DNA of 32,220 nt from Candidatus Erginobacter occultus (GTDB taxonomy: Bacteria; Auribacterota; Erginobacteria; Erginobacterales; Erginobacteraceae). The stretch spans positions 1 through 32,220 of the forward strand of contig JAVCCZ010000147.1 in assembly GCA_030765265.1 (NCBI GenBank). The letters are read 5' to 3'. The notes beneath the pieces are model-generated. The model searched no databases and was not told the DNA's origin. It worked only from the letters and a program-made list of their open reading frames with translations. Positions 2,080 through 31,902 of the stretch are shown piece by piece. The number at the start of each line of letters is the position of its first letter. Positions within the stretch are counted from its first letter, which is position 1. The position numbers were made by a program, and so were the translations under genes.

Positions 2080-3258
2080 ATGAACACCGAAAATAAACAC
2101 CCCCCGCATCCGGGGAGCGTCCCCCTCGGAAAGACGGGAAAGGAGAGCTCGGAGAGAAAAGACCTGCTCGCGCTCTCTCTGGAGAATCTCAGCGAGATGA
2201 TCCTGGTCACCGACCTCGAGCACCGGATCGTTTACGTCAACCCGGCGGTCCGAACGCTGCTCGGCTACGGTCCGGAAGAGATGATCGGCCGGAAGGCTGC
2301 CGATTTCTTCCCGGGTATCTCCGGCAACCCTCCCGACCTGGCCCGGGAGATGGTCCGGAACCACGGACCCGACGGGACCTGGCGGGGCGAGATCCTCAAC
2401 CGGAAAAAGGACGGCTCCACCATCGATGTCCTTCTTTCCTTGAGCGAACTACGGGATAGTCAAGACCGGCCGCTCGGATATGTCGGGGTCACCCGCGACA
2501 TCACCGCCCGGAAGAAGATCGAGCGGGAGCTAAAAAGAGCCAACCAGCGGCTGCGGCGGCTCGACCGGCAGAAATCCGATTACCTCTCCCTGGTCTCCCA
2601 CGAGCTGCGCACCCCCCTGACCTCGCTGCGATCGTTCGCCGAGATTCTTTTGGAGGACGAAACGATGGCCGAGGAGCGGCGGCGGGAATTTCTCTCGATT
2701 ATCCGGGAAGACACCGACCGCCTGACCCGGCTGATCAACAATGTCCTCGACCTGGGCCGGATCGAGGCGGGGACGATGCGCTGGGAGGAAGAGGTCTTCA
2801 GCCTCGCCGACCGGGTCGACAAAGCCATCCGAACCCTGAAAGGACTGGCCCTCTCGAGACAGGTCTCGATCGAACCGGCGCTGGCGGACGACCCGGTCCT
2901 GGTCTTCGCCGATCCCGACCGGATCCAGCAGGTGGCGATCAATCTGCTGAGCAACGCCGTCGCCGTCTCGCCCCCGGGAGAGACCGTCCGGGTCGAGGTC
3001 TCCCGGGTAAAGGAAGACGGCGAAATCCGGGCCCGGGTGGCGGTAACCGACCGGGGCGGGGGGATCGCCGCCGCCGACCGGGAAAAGATTTTCGAGAAAT
3101 TCTACCGCCAGGAAAAACGCAAAAGGGGATCCGGGCTGGGCCTCTTTATCTCCCGGGAGATCGTCCACCATTACGGTGGGACGATCGGGGTGGCGGAGAG
3201 TTCTCCCCGGGGAACGACCGTCAGCTTTTTCATCCCGACGACGGAGCGGGCGGGATGA
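2080..3258 (+). CDS. PAS domain sensor histidine kinase
   Basis: PAS region, H-box SHELRTPLTSL, N-box INLLSNAV, G-boxes DRGGGI and GSGLGLFI. Confidence 0.93.
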   Translation: MNTENKHPPHPGSVPLGKTGKESSERKDLLALSLENLSEMILVTDLEHRIVYVNPAVRTLLGYGPEEMIGRKAADFFPGISGNPPDLAREMVRNHGPDGTWRGEILNRKKDGSTIDVLLSLSELRDSQDRPLGYVGVTRDITARKKIERELKRANQRLRRLDRQKSDYLSLVSHELRTPLTSLRSFAEILLEDETMAEERRREFLSIIREDTDRLTRLINNVLDLGRIEAGTMRWEEEVFSLADRVDKAIRTLKGLALSRQVSIEPALADDPVLVFADPDRIQQVAINLLSNAVAVSPPGETVRVEVSRVKEDGEIRARVAVTDRGGGIAAADREKIFEKFYRQEKRKRGSGLGLFISREIVHHYGGTIGVAESSPRGTTVSFFIPTTERAG

Positions 3259-4145
3259 AGCAGAAGCGGAATCTGATCCTGGTGGTCGACGACGAACCCC
3301 ATATCCTGAAAGCGGTCCACTACATCCTCGACCGGGCGGGCTACCAGGTGCTGGCCGCCCGGGACGCGGAGGAAGCCCTGTCTCTGGTCTCCCGGGATCG
3401 GCCTTCGCTGGTGGTGGCGGATATTATGCTGCCGGGGATGGACGGTTATAAACTCTGCCGTCGCTTGCGGCATAGTCACCCCGATTCCCTGACCCCGTTT
3501 ATCTTTTTGAGCGCCCGGGATTCGGTCGATGACCGGGTGAAGGGTATCCGGACCGGGGCCGACGCCTACCTGACCAAACCCTTCCACCGGGAAGAGCTGC
3601 TGGCGATGGTGGAGGCGGTCCTGGACCGGCATCAGAGTTACGCGGAGCAGATTATGAATGACGATCTGACCGGGCTGCTCAACCGGAGTCATATCCTGCA
3701 GCGGCTGGAGGAGGAATTCGCCAGGGCCCGCCGTTACCGGCGGCCCCTGGCCGCGGCAATGATCGACCTGGATAATTTCAAGGCGGTCAACGACCTCTGC
3801 GGGCATCCGGCCGGCGACCGGCTCTTGAGGCAGATCGCTCAATTGCTTCGGGGAGAAATGAGGAAACAGGATTTTCTCGGCCGTTACGGCGGGGAGGAAT
3901 TCCTATCCGTGCTCCCGGAGACCACGGCCGCCGACGGCGCAATCCTCCTGGAGAGGTGCCGAAAGAAAGTGGCCGAAATCACCGCGCGGAGGGGGAAAAA
4001 CTCCGAGGGGATACCGGTCACCCTGAGCGCCGGGGTAACCGAACTGGCCGGCGGGGATAAAAACTTGTCCGAACTGCTCGACCGGGCCGACTGCCTTCTC
4101 TACCGGGCCAAGGAGGAAGGGCGCGACCGGGTGGCGGTCCGCTGA
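3255..4145 (+). CDS. Response regulator with GGDEF diguanylate cyclase domain
   Basis: Receiver VVDDEP...VVADIMLPGMDGY...LTKPF; GRYGGEEFL active site preceded by RKQD at I-site spacing; 4-bp ATGA overlap with upstream kinase. Confidence 0.93.
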   Translation: MKQKRNLILVVDDEPHILKAVHYILDRAGYQVLAARDAEEALSLVSRDRPSLVVADIMLPGMDGYKLCRRLRHSHPDSLTPFIFLSARDSVDDRVKGIRTGADAYLTKPFHREELLAMVEAVLDRHQSYAEQIMNDDLTGLLNRSHILQRLEEEFARARRYRRPLAAAMIDLDNFKAVNDLCGHPAGDRLLRQIAQLLRGEMRKQDFLGRYGGEEFLSVLPETTAADGAILLERCRKKVAEITARRGKNSEGIPVTLSAGVTELAGGDKNLSELLDRADCLLYRAKEEGRDRVAVR

Positions 4146-19089: not shown

Positions 19090-19920
19090 TTACCGGGGGC
19101 GGACCGGCAGCTGGAAGAGCCGTTGATACCGCCCGAAGAAAGGTCCCAGGGCCAGCCGGAAGTAGCCCAGGCCGTCGCCGGGCCGCAGGGTGACCCGGGG
19201 CAGGGTAAAAATCTCTTCCATCCGGCCCCGGTTGCCCGGTCGGAGGGTGACCGCCGCCTGGTAACCCGCCGTCCGGACCATTTCGACTATCCCCGCGGTG
19301 TAATCGCCCCGGGGATAGGCAAAGGAGCCGATCTCCTCCCCGGTCAATTCTTCCAGTACGGTCTTCGACTCCTCGATCTCCCGCCGGGACCGGTCGGCGG
19401 TCAGCCGGGGGAGGGAGGGATGGGAGAGGGTGTGGGAGCCGATCTCGTGACCCTCCCCGGAGAGAGCCGCCAGCTCCGACCGGTCAAGGAGGGGCAGGTC
19501 GAGCAGGGAGAAAGATCCGGAACTCCGGCCGACAAAATCGGCGGCGATGAAGATGGTGGCCTTGAATCCGTAGCGGTCGAGGACCGGCCGGGCTTGGGCG
19601 AAGAAATTCTTGTACCCGTCATCAAAGGTAATGACCGCCGCCGGCGGGCGCAGGGTGCCGCCCTTGAGGGCGGCGGCGTACCCGGACAGGGTGAGGACCC
19701 GCCATCCGTGCCGGTGGAGCCAGGCCATCTGCCGCCGGAATTTCTCCGGCGAAAGAGAGAGATCGGAGCCGCTCCCGTCAAGCGAGTGGTAGAGCAGGAT
19801 GGGGACCGGCGCGGGGGAAGACGAGAGGGGACCCAGGCGGTTGAAGAGAAACTGGACCACCGGCCGGGCCGCCGGCTTGATCAAACGGCGGAGGCGCGAA
19901 TTTCCGGCGGCACCGTTCAT
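19090..19920 (-). CDS. Polysaccharide deacetylase (NodB domain)
   Basis: VPILLYHSL, AVITFDDGYKNFF, EIGSHTLSHPSL, SFAYPRGDY. Confidence 0.93.
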   Translation of the reverse strand: MNGAAGNSRLRRLIKPAARPVVQFLFNRLGPLSSSPAPVPILLYHSLDGSGSDLSLSPEKFRRQMAWLHRHGWRVLTLSGYAAALKGGTLRPPAAVITFDDGYKNFFAQARPVLDRYGFKATIFIAADFVGRSSGSFSLLDLPLLDRSELAALSGEGHEIGSHTLSHPSLPRLTADRSRREIEESKTVLEELTGEEIGSFAYPRGDYTAGIVEMVRTAGYQAAVTLRPGNRGRMEEIFTLPRVTLRPGDGLGYFRLALGPFFGRYQRLFQLPVRPR

Positions 19921-19924
19921 CGGC

Positions 19925-21052
19925 TCAGATCCCCTTGCCCGGAAGCCGGGTTTCCTTTCCCAGCAGACGCTTCAGGGCCGTCTTCACCGCGAAGAGCGCC
20001 CGGAGAAGATCGGGACGGAAAGCCCGGTTGAAGACGATGATCTCGCGGTGGTAGCGGATTTCGTTGGTATAATGATACTTGAAGGGCTCCGCGCCCCGGA
20101 GATAATCCATCTCCCGGAAACTATTCTTGATGCTGTCCTGGATCAACAGGGCCATAATAACGTAACCGGGATGAAGACTTCCATAGCTGGATCGGAAAGA
20201 GCTGTTGAAGAGCCAGATCTTGTTTTGGAACTTGAAATTCAGCTTGTAGGCGATCGGTTCCCCGTCGAGGGTCAGCAGCTTGCAGTTCAGCCAGCCCGCC
20301 TCCTCGAACTTTTCCAGGAAGACGGGCAGGAACCGGTCGATCCCGGGCCGGAGGAAGAGGGAGGTCCCCCGTCTGGCTTTCGGAGAATCAAGGCTGATCT
20401 CCCGGAACAGCTTCCAGTCCGCAACCTTCGCCTCCTGGAGCCTCACCTCCCCGGCCCGCTTGATCCGTTTCAAATCCCCCCGGACCCGCTTGCGGAACTG
20501 TTTCGACCGGCTCTGTAGGTAGGCCTCCCAATCCTGGTCGAGGAGGATGAAGGGGCAGATCGAGCAGGTTCGGAAGGTATGCCGGATCTTCCGGTCCCGG
20601 AGCAGGTCGCCGGTCACGGTCAGGTTGAAGGAGCCGGCCGGGATCTCCCCCAGCCGGACAACGTCCCAGCGGGAGCGGACCTCCCAGAGGTAATCCCAGA
20701 ACAGCTCTACCACCTCCTCCTTCCGCTCGGGGATGATCATATCCATCCGGTCGCTCAGGGGGGAACCGGCGAATTCGAGCAGGCGGGCGGGCAGGCGGAG
20801 AAATTTTCCCTGGCGCAAGATCAGGGGACAGAGCCCGGCCAGTTCGTTCTTCCGGTAGGCGGCCAGGACCAGGATCTCCCCTTCCGGACCGTACACCTCC
20901 AGCCAGGGGATGATCCACCGGGGGGAGATAAAGGGAGAGGGCGCTGGGAGCTGTTTTATCAGCCGTTCCCAGTCGGCTTCCAGTTCCGCGAGCTGGGCAA
21001 CCTCGGTGAAGACTTTCAGGGCGAGGCCGCCCTTGCGGGTGGTGGCGGTCAC
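19925..21052 (-). CDS. CelD/BcsL-like GNAT acyltransferase domain (only GTG available as N-terminal start; same frame as the upstream ORF)
   Basis: SPFISPRWIIPWLEVYGPEGE, PIAYKLNFKFQNKIWLFNSSFRSSYGSLHPGYVIMALLIQDSIKNSFREMDYLRGAEPFKYHYT. Confidence 0.82.
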   Translation of the reverse strand: MTATTRKGGLALKVFTEVAQLAELEADWERLIKQLPAPSPFISPRWIIPWLEVYGPEGEILVLAAYRKNELAGLCPLILRQGKFLRLPARLLEFAGSPLSDRMDMIIPERKEEVVELFWDYLWEVRSRWDVVRLGEIPAGSFNLTVTGDLLRDRKIRHTFRTCSICPFILLDQDWEAYLQSRSKQFRKRVRGDLKRIKRAGEVRLQEAKVADWKLFREISLDSPKARRGTSLFLRPGIDRFLPVFLEKFEEAGWLNCKLLTLDGEPIAYKLNFKFQNKIWLFNSSFRSSYGSLHPGYVIMALLIQDSIKNSFREMDYLRGAEPFKYHYTNEIRYHREIIVFNRAFRPDLLRALFAVKTALKRLLGKETRLPGKGI

Positions 21053-21295
21053 CGGGAGCCGGGACGGATCCGTTCCCTTGCCGGAGGCGCGCCGGTACGC
21101 CGCACTGAAGATACCTTCCGGGCCGAGAAACCTGATCTGCTTCCGGCAGAGGAGCTGGGCCGTGGACCGCCCGCGGTCGGCCCAGCGGGCCAGGGTGGAG
21201 GGAAGACCGGGCAGGTAGACGGTGAATTCCAGGTGCTCCCGCCAGCGGCCGGTCCAGTTGAACTTGTAGTCTTCCGCCCCCCTCAGGAGATCGAA

Positions 21296-22219
21296 TTACC
21301 GCTCCCCCCGCTTGATCGCCGCCTGGATCATCAGCGCCAGCAGGAGATGCCCCGGGTTGTCGGCGGCCCGTTCCCGGTCGAAGGAGCTCTCGTAGGACCA
21401 GTTTTTTTTTCGGTAGCGGAAGCCGAGGTCGTAGGCGATCGGCCGGTTGTCAAGGAGGAGGAAAGAAAGTCCGAGCCGCCCGGCCGCCGAGAATCTCTCC
21501 AGCAGGAGCCGGGCGAACTCTTCCCTCCCCGGCGGGGAGAAAAAGGCGATCCCCCTTCTCTGCTTCTCGCTCCGCCGGGAGAGGCCGAGGATCGTCTTCC
21601 AGGACCGGGGAGTGAACGGCCGTTCCTCGAGCCGGACCCCGCCTGACTTTTCGGCGGCGAGGAAGTACTTTCTCAGTTTCTTGCGGAACGAAGAAGAGAG
21701 TGTCCCGAGATACTCCCCCCAGGAGCCGGGGAGGATGATCACCGGCGCCCGGTCGCAGACCCGGTAACGATAACGGAGCCCGCTGCCGGGGAGCAGCCGT
21801 TTCAGGACCCGGGCGGTGGGAGATCCGGCCGGGATCTGTTTCAGGGAAAGGAGGTCGGCCCCGAAAGGCCGGGTCCGGCAGAAGTCGAGAAAGGCGGCGA
21901 GGGCCTTTCCCCGGTTGCCGGAGATTAAAAAATCGCAGCGATCGGACTCCGGGTCGCCGATGAAGGAGACGGTCCTCAGTTTTCCGCCGGGGAAACTCCG
22001 CTCTTTCAGGCAGAGTGGGAAGAAACCCTTCCAGCCCTTCCCCTCCCCCCGGACCACAAGCAGCTTCCGGTTCAAGCCCAGGGTCTCCAACCAGGAGAGC
22101 ACCCACTCGAAGGTCAGGAAGACGGAATCTACCCCGCTATCCTCGAGGAGGAGGTTCCATTCCCCTTCCCGGGTCCGGAACTCTTCCCGGTTCTCAATTA
22201 TCCGCCAGCTGTTCTCCAT
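21296..22219 (-). pseudogene. CelD/BcsL-like GNAT acyltransferase interrupted by in-frame TAA; conserved C-terminus continues in frame as FDLLRGAEDYKFNWTG...
   Basis: SVFLTFEWVLSWLETLG, PIAYDLGFRYRKKNWSYESSFDRERAADNPGHLLLALMIQAAIKRGER-stop; codons 21295 down to 21053 are open and in frame with 19925-21052. Confidence 0.7.
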
Positions 22220-22865
22220 CGCTTCTTTTTTTGATCAGGTTCCATTTCCAGGCCAAAATCCTCCGGTGAAGGATAACCGCTGCCGGCCGGAACCCGGCTC
22301 GGAGCGCCGCCGCCCGAGCCGGCAGTTTTTCCCAGGAAATAATAACCAGCAACACCGTCCGGCCCCAGCGGCGCTGGAGCCGTCCGGCTTCCAGTAAACC
22401 TTCCTGGTAGCAACCCCGACCCCGAAAGGCGGGGCGGGTATAGGCGTCGTAAAGATAGCCCTTAGCGGGGAGGAGATCAATCCGGTAATTCATCTCCCGG
22501 TCGAGATAGGACTCCCCTGCCGTCAGCCAACAGTAGTGGGCGATCTTACCTTCCTTCAGGCCCACCAGGCAATATTCCCGATTTTGAAAACGCCGGCGGA
22601 AAAGCCTGATCTTGCCGGCGGGCAGAAGCTCTCCCAGAAGCGCTAAGTCATCCAGCCCCGCTTTTCTCCAGACCAGGATTGTCGGAGGGGGCGGCTCCTC
22701 GCGAAGTCTTTTTGCCATTATAACTACCGGGAAGGACCGATAAAAATAGCGCCCCAGAATCTTGAAACCGGATTTTACCAACCGGCAAAAAGATTTCCTC
22801 CCGATCGGACCGGGCCGAACCGGGACTTTCCGGATATTCTTTTCCATTTTCACCGGGCCGTCCAT
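22194..22865 (-). CDS. GNAT family N-acetyltransferase
   Basis: YLYDAYTRPAFRGRGCYQEGLLEAGRLQRRWGRTVLLVIISWEKLPARAAALRAGFRP; 26-bp overlap with next gene. Confidence 0.7.
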   Translation of the reverse strand: MDGPVKMEKNIRKVPVRPGPIGRKSFCRLVKSGFKILGRYFYRSFPVVIMAKRLREEPPPPTILVWRKAGLDDLALLGELLPAGKIRLFRRRFQNREYCLVGLKEGKIAHYCWLTAGESYLDREMNYRIDLLPAKGYLYDAYTRPAFRGRGCYQEGLLEAGRLQRRWGRTVLLVIISWEKLPARAAALRAGFRPAAVILHRRILAWKWNLIKKRSDGEQLADN

Positions 22866-26696: not shown

Positions 26697-27080
26697 TCAG
26701 TCCGCCATCTCCAGCGCGCCCACCGGGCAGGCCTCGACGCAGGCCCCGCACTGGACGCAGATCAAAGCCCCGGTGTCGCGGTGGAGCTTGATCCCGTCGT
26801 AGGGACAGACCGGGACGCAGGTCCCGCAGCCGGTGCATTTTTTCGCGTCGATCCGGACCGCGCCGTTCTTTTCCGTGATCGCCCCTTCGGGGCAGGCCTT
26901 GAGACAGGGCCGCCCGGCGCACTGGACGCAGACGCTCATCCGGGTCTCGGTGTCGGAGATCCGGGTGATCTCCAGCCGGGCTTTCTTCGGGTTGTTGACC
27001 TGGAAAAACCGGAAAGCGCAGACCATCTGGCAGCTCTGGCACCCGGAACAGAGGTCGATCCTGTGAACAAGATGTTTCAT
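26697..27080 (-). CDS. Ferredoxin-like protein with four [4Fe-4S] motifs (HycB/AOR-associated type)
   Basis: CSGCQSCQMVC, CVQCAGRPCLKAC, CTGCGTCVPVC, CVQCGACVEAC. Confidence 0.93.
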   Translation of the reverse strand: MKHLVHRIDLCSGCQSCQMVCAFRFFQVNNPKKARLEITRISDTETRMSVCVQCAGRPCLKACPEGAITEKNGAVRIDAKKCTGCGTCVPVCPYDGIKLHRDTGALICVQCGACVEACPVGALEMAD

Positions 27081-27139: not shown

Positions 27140-29005
27140 CTACTTCCCGTACAACTCCTCCTTCACCTCCTCCAACCCCAGCTCATCGAGCGTCTCCGGC
27201 CGGATCAGCCCGTCCTCGTCGTACCCCCAGAGCCGGTAGTAATCATCGAGCATTACATCGAGGTGGACCACCTCGCCCTTAGCCGGGCCTTCCTCTTCCG
27301 GCTCGCTGAGGAACCGGTCGGGTAGGGTGTCGTCCTTCCGGGACAATCCTTCCCGCTGATTGAAGGCGCGTCTGAGAACGCAGATCCGCTTGCCGATCCG
27401 CTCGAGGTTCTCCACGTCGGCGAAGATCTCCAACCCGGTCAGACTGGTCAGGATGTCGGGGACATCCGGGTAGTAGTAGCAGAGGGGATACATTGTCCCG
27501 TACTTGCAGAGGATCAGGGAGTCGACCACGGCGTAGAAGTGCTCGACGTCAAAGACCATCTGGCCCTTGAAGGTCTCGGAGTGCCGGTCGAGGGCGTCTT
27601 TCAGCTTGTCCTCGCCGTAGCGGCGGCGGCCGATCTCGGGGAAACCGATCTCGTCGATCACCGAGAGCCCCCTCAAATGGTCGGCCCCCCGAACCGAGGT
27701 GGCGTGGGTCAGCCCCCCCGAGCGATGGGCCCGGCCGTCCTGTCCGGAGATCTCCTGCCCCTTGACGTGCATCGCGAACTTCTCCGCACCCCCTCCGATC
27801 TTCGCCGCCGCCCTCTTCACCCCCTCGGCCAAAAGATCGCCCAAACCCTCGCGGTAGGCGATCGCCTTGACCATCTCCACCATCTTCTCCCCGTCGGTCC
27901 ACTTCACCTCCTCGGGGATCAGGCCGTGCTCCGAGCATTCCATCGCGAAGCCGATCGCCGAGCCGCAGGAGATGGTATCCATCCCCAGGTCATTGCAGAG
28001 GTGGTTGGCGTAGATCAAGTCGTCGAGGTCGGAGTTGAGGCAGCCGGTGCCGAGCGAGACCACCGTTTCGTATTCCGGTCCCTCGCCGATGTTGTTGTAC
28101 TTCTTCGATAGGGTAACCAACTTGCACTGGATCTTGCAGTTGAAGCAGGAGTTCTTAGCCACCCGGAACTCGTCCCGGATCCGGGTCGAGCCGACCTTCT
28201 CCACCAGGTCGAAGACCCCCTTCTTGTGGTTCCGGGTCGGGAGCCGGCCGATCTCGTTCTCGATCTCGACCAACCCGGCGGAACCGAACTCCCGCAGGGA
28301 GAGGCAGCCCTCGGAGTCGGGACCCTCAAGAAAGCGGTATTTCGACTCCTTGAAGAGCTCGCCCAGTTTCTTCGGGTCGGCGGCGGTGATGTCGTTCGTT
28401 CCCCGGATGGCGATCGCCTTTAAGTTCTTCGAGCCCATCACCGCCCCCAGGCCGGAGCGGCCGAAGGCCCGGTGCTTGTCGGTCATCACGGCGGCGAAGC
28501 GGACCAGCTTCTCCCCGGCCGGGCCGATGCAGGCCACCCGTTCCAGGGAGTGCTTCTCCCTGAGAAATTCGGTAGTCCGGTTGACGGTCTCGCCCCAGAC
28601 CTCCGAGGCGTCCTCCAGGGTGACCCGGTCGTCCTCGATTAAAAGGTAGACCGGCTTGTCCGCCTTCCTCTCGAAGATGACCAGGTCGTAGCCGGCGTAC
28701 TTCAGCTCCGGGCCGAAATGCCCCCCGCAGTGAGCCTCGGCCCAGACCCCGGTCAGGGGAGACTTGGCGGCCATCATATATCGTCCGCTCTGGGGAAAGA
28801 GGGTCCCGGTGGTCGGCCCGGTCGCCAGGATCAGGATGTTCTCCGGCGAAAGGGCTTCGATCCCCGGCTTCAGCTCGTCCCAGAGGATCCGGGCGCAGAA
28901 CCCCGTCCCCCCGATATACTCGATCCAGCGTTCGGGGAGATCTTCTTTCTTGACCGTCCCCTCGGTCAGGTTGATCCGCAAAAACTTTCCCGCGTATCCG
29001 TGCAT
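27140..29005 (-). CDS. Aldehyde ferredoxin oxidoreductase family protein (AOR-1)
   Basis: MHGYAGKFLRINLTEGTVKKEDLPERWIEYIGGTGF, NILILATGPTTGTLFPQSGRYMMAAKSPLTGVWAEAHCGGHFGPELKYAGYD, CFNCKIQC, HLCNDLGMDTIS. Confidence 0.96.
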   Translation of the reverse strand: MHGYAGKFLRINLTEGTVKKEDLPERWIEYIGGTGFCARILWDELKPGIEALSPENILILATGPTTGTLFPQSGRYMMAAKSPLTGVWAEAHCGGHFGPELKYAGYDLVIFERKADKPVYLLIEDDRVTLEDASEVWGETVNRTTEFLREKHSLERVACIGPAGEKLVRFAAVMTDKHRAFGRSGLGAVMGSKNLKAIAIRGTNDITAADPKKLGELFKESKYRFLEGPDSEGCLSLREFGSAGLVEIENEIGRLPTRNHKKGVFDLVEKVGSTRIRDEFRVAKNSCFNCKIQCKLVTLSKKYNNIGEGPEYETVVSLGTGCLNSDLDDLIYANHLCNDLGMDTISCGSAIGFAMECSEHGLIPEEVKWTDGEKMVEMVKAIAYREGLGDLLAEGVKRAAAKIGGGAEKFAMHVKGQEISGQDGRAHRSGGLTHATSVRGADHLRGLSVIDEIGFPEIGRRRYGEDKLKDALDRHSETFKGQMVFDVEHFYAVVDSLILCKYGTMYPLCYYYPDVPDILTSLTGLEIFADVENLERIGKRICVLRRAFNQREGLSRKDDTLPDRFLSEPEEEGPAKGEVVHLDVMLDDYYRLWGYDEDGLIRPETLDELGLEEVKEELYGK

Positions 29006-30002: not shown

Positions 30003-31856
30003 TTACTTCGCAATCCCTAACTCCTGGAGCTTTTCCTCGGTCGGACGGCCGTCCTCGGCCCACCCGCGGACCTCGTAATACCGCGGCAGCATCTTATCCA
30101 GCTCGACGATCTGGCCCTGGGCCGGACCCTCCGGGAGCGGTTCCTGCAGGTACCGCTTGGGCAGCGAATCGTCGGCCGGGGTCAGCCCGCAGGCGAGGTT
30201 GAAGAGCCGCTCGACGTTGAGGATCCGCTCCCCGGCCTTCATCACCTTCTCCTCGTCCCACTCGATCCCGGTAGCCAGAGTGAGCAGGTCGGCCATATCC
30301 TGGGGCAGAATGGCGTAGGTGGCGAACATACAGTACTTGCACATCTCGGCGGAGTCGACCACGGCGGCGAAGTTTTCGTGCCAGAGGACCATATCGGCCT
30401 TCCCCTGCCAGGCGTAGGGGTCGACGGTGTGGGGGTCGCCGAACCACTCCACCCCCTCCTCCGGGGTGTAACTCAAGAGTTCAAAGTTGGGCAGGGCGCG
30501 GAGGTGGTCTCCTCCCCGGGAGGCTACCGCCAGCCCGAGACCGAACCCCTTCCCGGTCCGGGGATCGTAGGCCGGCAGTTCCATCCCCTTGGTCTGGAGG
30601 GCGAAGTCCATCGAATCGCCGCCGATCTTCTCGGCCAGGTACTTCATCCCCTTGGCCGCCTCGTCTCCGATCCCCTCCCGGAAGGCGATCTTCCGTACCA
30701 GATCGATCACCATATCGACGTCGCCCCAGGCGTACTTCTCCGGGATCAACCCTTTCTCGGAACACTCGAAGAGAAATCCAATGATTCCCCCCACCGAGAT
30801 AGTGTCCATCCCCAGGTCGTTGCAGAGCCAGTTGGCGTAGATCACCGGGGCCAGGTCGGCGATATCCGGACGGGTGCCCAGGGCGACGAAAGTCTCGTAC
30901 TCCGGCCCCTTCCCCCGGCAGAAGTATTTTTCGTCCTTGACCTTGGCGTAGTTCGAGCAATGGATGATGCAGGAGAAGCAGCTCTCGGAGCGCTCGACGA
31001 AGTTCTCCCGGTAGTAGTGGCTGTCGTAGTTCTCAGCGTGTTCAAAGACCCCGGTCTGGCCGTTCCGGGTCGAAAGCCCCCCGCTGAGGGCGGCGATATC
31101 GGTGATCACCGCCGTCCCGTAGTGGGAGAAGTCGTCGTAGGTCTTGTCCCCGGTGATCTTGTCGTAGCACTCGGCGCACTTCTTCATAAACCCGGCCGGG
31201 TCGGACAGATTCAGATCGCCGATCCCGTTGACGGCGATAGCTTTGAGGTTCTTCGAGCCCATCACCGCCCCCACCCCGCAGCGGGCCAGGTAGTGGAACT
31301 TGTCGTTGGCGATGGCGGCACAGAAGACCATCTTCTCCCCGGCCGGCCCTATGCAGGCGACCTTGGTATCCCTTCCCAGCTTCTCGACCAGCCGGTCGGT
31401 GGTTTCCATCACCCCCTTACCCGCCAGGTCGGAGGCGGGGACGATCTCCACCAAGTCGTCGGTAATCTTGAGATAGACCAGCTCCTCTGACTTCCCCTCG
31501 ACGATAATCGCGTCGTAGCCGGCGTACTTGATCTCGGCCCCGAAGGCGCCCCCGGAGTTGGCGTCCCCGAAGAGCCCGGTCAGTGGCGACTTGGTGGTCA
31601 CCGTGTAGCGGCCCGAGGAGGGGGACATCGTCCCGTTGAGCGGACCGGCGGAGAAGATCAGGACGTTCTGGGGCCCCAGGGGATCGACGGCAGCCGGATC
31701 GGGGAGGAGGTCGGAGAGGAGCCGGGACCCGAACCCCCGCCCCCCGATGTAATCCTCCATCAGCTTCCGGGGGAGCGGCTCTTTGGTTATCGTGCCGGAA
31801 CTCAGGTTAACCCGAAGGATCTTCCCCATATATCCAAAGTAGTCGGCTTGGTTCAT
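30003..31856 (-). CDS. Aldehyde ferredoxin oxidoreductase family protein (AOR-2)
   Basis: MGKILRVNLSSGTITKEPLPRKLMEDYIGGRGFGSRLL, NVLIFSAGPLNGTMSPSSGRYTVTTKSPLTGLFGDANSGG, CFSCIIHC, WLCNDLGMDTIS; GGAGGAG upstream of ATGAACCAAG supports this start. Confidence 0.96.
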   Translation of the reverse strand: MNQADYFGYMGKILRVNLSSGTITKEPLPRKLMEDYIGGRGFGSRLLSDLLPDPAAVDPLGPQNVLIFSAGPLNGTMSPSSGRYTVTTKSPLTGLFGDANSGGAFGAEIKYAGYDAIIVEGKSEELVYLKITDDLVEIVPASDLAGKGVMETTDRLVEKLGRDTKVACIGPAGEKMVFCAAIANDKFHYLARCGVGAVMGSKNLKAIAVNGIGDLNLSDPAGFMKKCAECYDKITGDKTYDDFSHYGTAVITDIAALSGGLSTRNGQTGVFEHAENYDSHYYRENFVERSESCFSCIIHCSNYAKVKDEKYFCRGKGPEYETFVALGTRPDIADLAPVIYANWLCNDLGMDTISVGGIIGFLFECSEKGLIPEKYAWGDVDMVIDLVRKIAFREGIGDEAAKGMKYLAEKIGGDSMDFALQTKGMELPAYDPRTGKGFGLGLAVASRGGDHLRALPNFELLSYTPEEGVEWFGDPHTVDPYAWQGKADMVLWHENFAAVVDSAEMCKYCMFATYAILPQDMADLLTLATGIEWDEEKVMKAGERILNVERLFNLACGLTPADDSLPKRYLQEPLPEGPAQGQIVELDKMLPRYYEVRGWAEDGRPTEEKLQELGIAK

Positions 31857-31902
31857 CTCATTCTCCTCCATCCGCCCCACACGGCGGATTGGTCGTGTAT
31901 TC

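Follow-up and report, generated by a model that had tools for sequence, protein, structure and literature searches.

A single in-frame TAA in a two-unit acyltransferase gene of Candidatus Erginobacter occultus, probably an ordinary interrupted copy

The closest described relatives of the locus reported here are the proteins of Pfam family PF13480 (Acetyltransf_6), which are CelD/BioF2-like GNAT acyltransferases, and the FemX/FemABX aminoacyltransferases, such as FemX of Weissella viridescens (PDB 1ne9, 7z6a). In the window, by which we mean the whole 32,220-nucleotide stretch of DNA that was analysed, a minus-strand frame of 765 codons (22219..19925) encodes two units, denoted B and A, that both match PF13480 (E = 1.8e-19 and 2.7e-21), and an uninterrupted relative likewise has two matches per chain. 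A preliminary description of this DNA had noted that one TAA is the sole interruption of the frame. This was borne out by translation, in which codon 308 (21296-21298) was the only internal stop, followed by a terminal TGA. The features are located as follows.

22194..22865, minus strand: small GNAT-like gene upstream (223 aa), overlapping the unit B start by 26 nt and carrying the motif YDAYTRPAFRGRG
21296..22219, minus strand: unit B ORF, opening at ATG 22219 and closed early by the TAA (307 aa), a cut Acetyltransf_6 (FemX-like) unit
21263..21694, minus strand: PF13480 match of unit B with the TAA read through (model 1-142 of 143, 94.5 bits)
21296..21298, minus strand: in-frame TAA at codon 308, next base T (UAA-U), with Glu in the intact relative and most homologues
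21053..21295, minus strand: rest of unit B past the stop, comprising the last two predicted strands of the C-terminal GNAT subdomain, C-terminal helices and a linker
19925..21052, minus strand: unit A, a complete second Acetyltransf_6 unit, a standalone ORF (375 aa) only from GTG 21052
20078..20500, minus strand: part of unit A that matches PF13480 (model 2-142 of 143)
19090..19920, minus strand: polysaccharide deacetylase (PF01522), which begins 4 nt past the stop codon of unit A

The GC content at third codon positions was 0.83 before the TAA, 0.86 in the interval from there to unit A, and 0.82 within unit A itself, indicating that both sides of the stop look coding. No in-frame ATG, GTG or TTG was found in 21053..21295 (-), and the first such codon past the TAA is the GTG at 21050-21052, as had been noticed before. 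We favour, with a probability of roughly 0.9, the reading that an ordinary two-unit acyltransferase gene of an exopolysaccharide cluster is present here as a recently interrupted copy.

When the units were cut at the TAA, unit B scored 70.7 bits and unit A 76.6 bits, both above the curated PF13480 cut-off of 22. The truncated unit B matched columns 1-128 of the 143-column model, and reading through the TAA extended this match to column 142, showing that the stop lies inside the PF13480 domain and not at a domain boundary. The structure of the first unit was predicted from the intact homologue with a mean pLDDT of 78, in which the stop column corresponds to residue 304; according to this model, the parts missing here are the strands 304-307 and 321-331 together with the C-terminal helices. 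Unit A alone was predicted with lower confidence (mean pLDDT 69). A Foldseek search with this first-unit model of the intact homologue gave a full-length match to FemX (E = 1.4e-11, TM 0.56/0.63, 385 columns), although the sequence identity of this unit to FemX is just 13%; a PDB sequence search found no relative of the acyltransferase. Each half is thus probably a FemX-like protein of two GNAT subdomains, as far as the predicted models indicate, so that the intact chain would have about four GNAT folds. The earlier view of two tandem CelD-like GNAT domains holds insofar as both halves match PF13480, and is refined here in the number and likeness of the folds.

A first search for relatives took in 59 related genomes, and an orthologue without an internal stop was found in the genome G002, which belongs to a different genus of the same family (MAG DRR093004_bin.13, contig CAKZYZ010000254.1). 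It is 53% identical over query residues 6-755 (E = 9e-262), and gene order is kept upstream of it, where a counterpart of the small GNAT-like gene is located (38% over 71 aa, E = 5e-8). The existence of such an intact double acyltransferase had been anticipated. The residue at the stop column is Glu in G002, encoded by a codon one substitution away from TAA, and is also usually Glu in distant homologues. The assignment of the post-stop segment to unit B was likewise confirmed, since by homology it forms the C-terminus of that unit. It had also been considered that all homologues might end at ...KRGER with the following segment unconserved; instead, nine of nine other aligned units run on past the stop column, none ending or having a stop there, and the 37 residues just past the TAA are 70% identical to the G002 relative. 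Among 44 species genomes of the phylum that were covered, the two-unit gene was present in two, namely the window's genome and G002. A scan of genome contigs gave no relative when the window protein alone served as the query, and with an alignment as the query it returned only G002 records.

Several features of the G002 contig are recorded separately. The orthologue's frame (L002:405-3680, CAKZYZ010000254.1) runs on into a REC-GGDEF diguanylate cyclase, giving 1091 aa in total, and this cyclase part is 51% identical to a separate window gene at 3255-4145 (+), located 16 kb off on the opposite strand. The acyltransferase-cyclase junction carries an internal ATG, and may represent a true fusion or a lost stop codon. 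Apparent Illumina adapter sequences were seen by eye near both ends of this 3853-bp contig (L002:50-125 and 3785-3850).

The rarity of the interruption was evaluated by a survey of 295 kb of the genome, composed of the window and 14 sampled stretches. Seven same-frame junctions with a single stop and coding-like sequence on both sides were detected. At six of them the next start codon lies 3-18 nt past the stop, as is usual for neighbouring genes; the distance is 243 nt at the acyltransferase junction. Because only this junction lacks a start within 18 nt, the event is an isolated one, with no such pattern across the genome. The reading as two ordinary tandem genes that happen to share a frame was rejected, as the other six junctions have a start within 18 nt and the segment after the TAA is, by homology, the C-terminus of unit B. 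Nonsynonymous divergence (dN) from the G002 relative was 0.43 before the TAA, 0.46 from the TAA to unit A, and 0.43 in unit A. There is accordingly no sign of excess amino-acid divergence or relaxed selection past the TAA, which suggests that the stop is either recent or not real, that is, a consensus error. Synonymous divergence (dS) from the same relative was saturated, so that dN/dS is of no use as a clock. With this saturation, and with a single intact two-unit relative in the 44 species genomes covered, the stop can be dated only loosely.

That an uninterrupted version exists in a related bacterium makes it most likely that the gene is simply broken here or that the assembly is wrong at one base, and not that a new decoding mechanism is at work. 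Programmed or regulated readthrough of the TAA would yield a short protein of unit B alone alongside a minor amount of the full-length double protein, and the continuation of the frame, codon usage and conserved residues past the stop is what it would call for. The context UAA-U is, however, reported as the most efficient bacterial terminator, UAA being the stop with the least readthrough (PMC5289835). Typing covered all 39 tRNAs detected in the genome, none of which has the anticodon TTA of an ochre suppressor; this absence is strong but not absolute, as the genome is 87% complete. Moreover, TAA ends 9 of the 28 window genes, and neither the G002 relative nor any other homologue has a stop at that position. 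It is highly improbable that the TAA is real and serves, through low-level readthrough, as a switch that yields a unit B acting as a decoy or lacking activity, together with a minor acyltransferase of four GNAT folds. An altered genetic code was rejected by the same 9 of 28 genes ending at TAA and the lack of a detected ochre-decoding tRNA. Of the three options raised in the preliminary description, readthrough is therefore disfavoured, and mutation and mis-sequencing both stand.

Within the reading of an interrupted two-unit gene, we consider it probable that the TAA is present in the organism itself. The sub-case in which the organism's gene is intact and the TAA is a one-base error of consensus or assembly appears unlikely, yet it draws on several observations: the assembly is a metagenome-assembled draft of 249 contigs, the relative's codon is one substitution from TAA, there is no decay past the stop, and no other interrupted gene was detected in the 295 kb. 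Against it, a read consensus seldom contains isolated substitution errors. A literature search on premature stops in metagenome-assembled genomes found nothing useful. The two ORFs might also represent a functional gene split, in which unit B works at 307 aa and unit A is separately translated from GTG 21052. Unit A is indeed complete from that codon, single-unit genes occur as a separate pair in G004, a genome of the same order, and a paralogue with one unit is present in G002. But the TAA takes away core strands of unit B in the model, the start-less intervening region is as conserved as the rest, and GTG 21052, located 243 nt from the stop, has no Shine-Dalgarno match, with a pairing energy of just -1.7 kcal/mol. 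Several window genes are likewise devoid of a good Shine-Dalgarno sequence, so that this GTG may allow a weak restart; such a split is nevertheless quite improbable on balance. For the interrupted copy that we favour, translation would end at 307 aa, unit B would be inactive because its C-terminal GNAT fold lacks the final two strands, and unit A would at best be made weakly through reinitiation at GTG 21052.

The neighbourhood gives a clue to the role of the intact protein. The genes that follow on the same strand encode the polysaccharide deacetylase, a polysaccharide export protein, a chain-length determinant, a tyrosine autokinase-like protein and an O-antigen-ligase-like protein. Judging from the family and these neighbours, the intact protein most likely transfers acyl or aminoacyl groups onto amino sugars in the exopolysaccharide that the surrounding cluster makes, and the acceptor amines may be those exposed by the adjacent deacetylase. 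A literature search on CelD-like GNATs and PEP-CTERM FemAB yielded nothing useful. The small upstream GNAT-like protein has no Pfam match at 1e-3, and upstream of its gene lies a sigma-70-like site, TGGAGA-17-TATAAT (22989-22961, minus strand), a candidate operon promoter. Elsewhere in the window, two long minus-strand ORFs (27140-29005 and 30003-31880) resemble, by eye, aldehyde:ferredoxin oxidoreductases in tandem; a ferredoxin-like ORF (26697-27080) and small ORFs of MoaD-like appearance lie between or next to the two.

In annotation, the two ORFs are to be recorded as one gene flagged as interrupted, not as two genes. A suspected case of recoding is settled in favour of an ordinary gene that has been interrupted. 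The locus also documents, in an exopolysaccharide cluster, an uncommon arrangement in which two FemX-like acyltransferase units stand in tandem. Compared with typical PF13480 proteins, the polypeptide considered here holds two full units, with the stop inside the first. The locus otherwise resembles the nonsense-interrupted pseudogenes of bacteria, in that one in-frame stop lies in an otherwise intact frame and an uninterrupted orthologue exists elsewhere, with the stop placed inside a conserved domain, where it removes structure that the model indicates to be necessary. The sole difference from such pseudogenes is the tandem architecture of the product.
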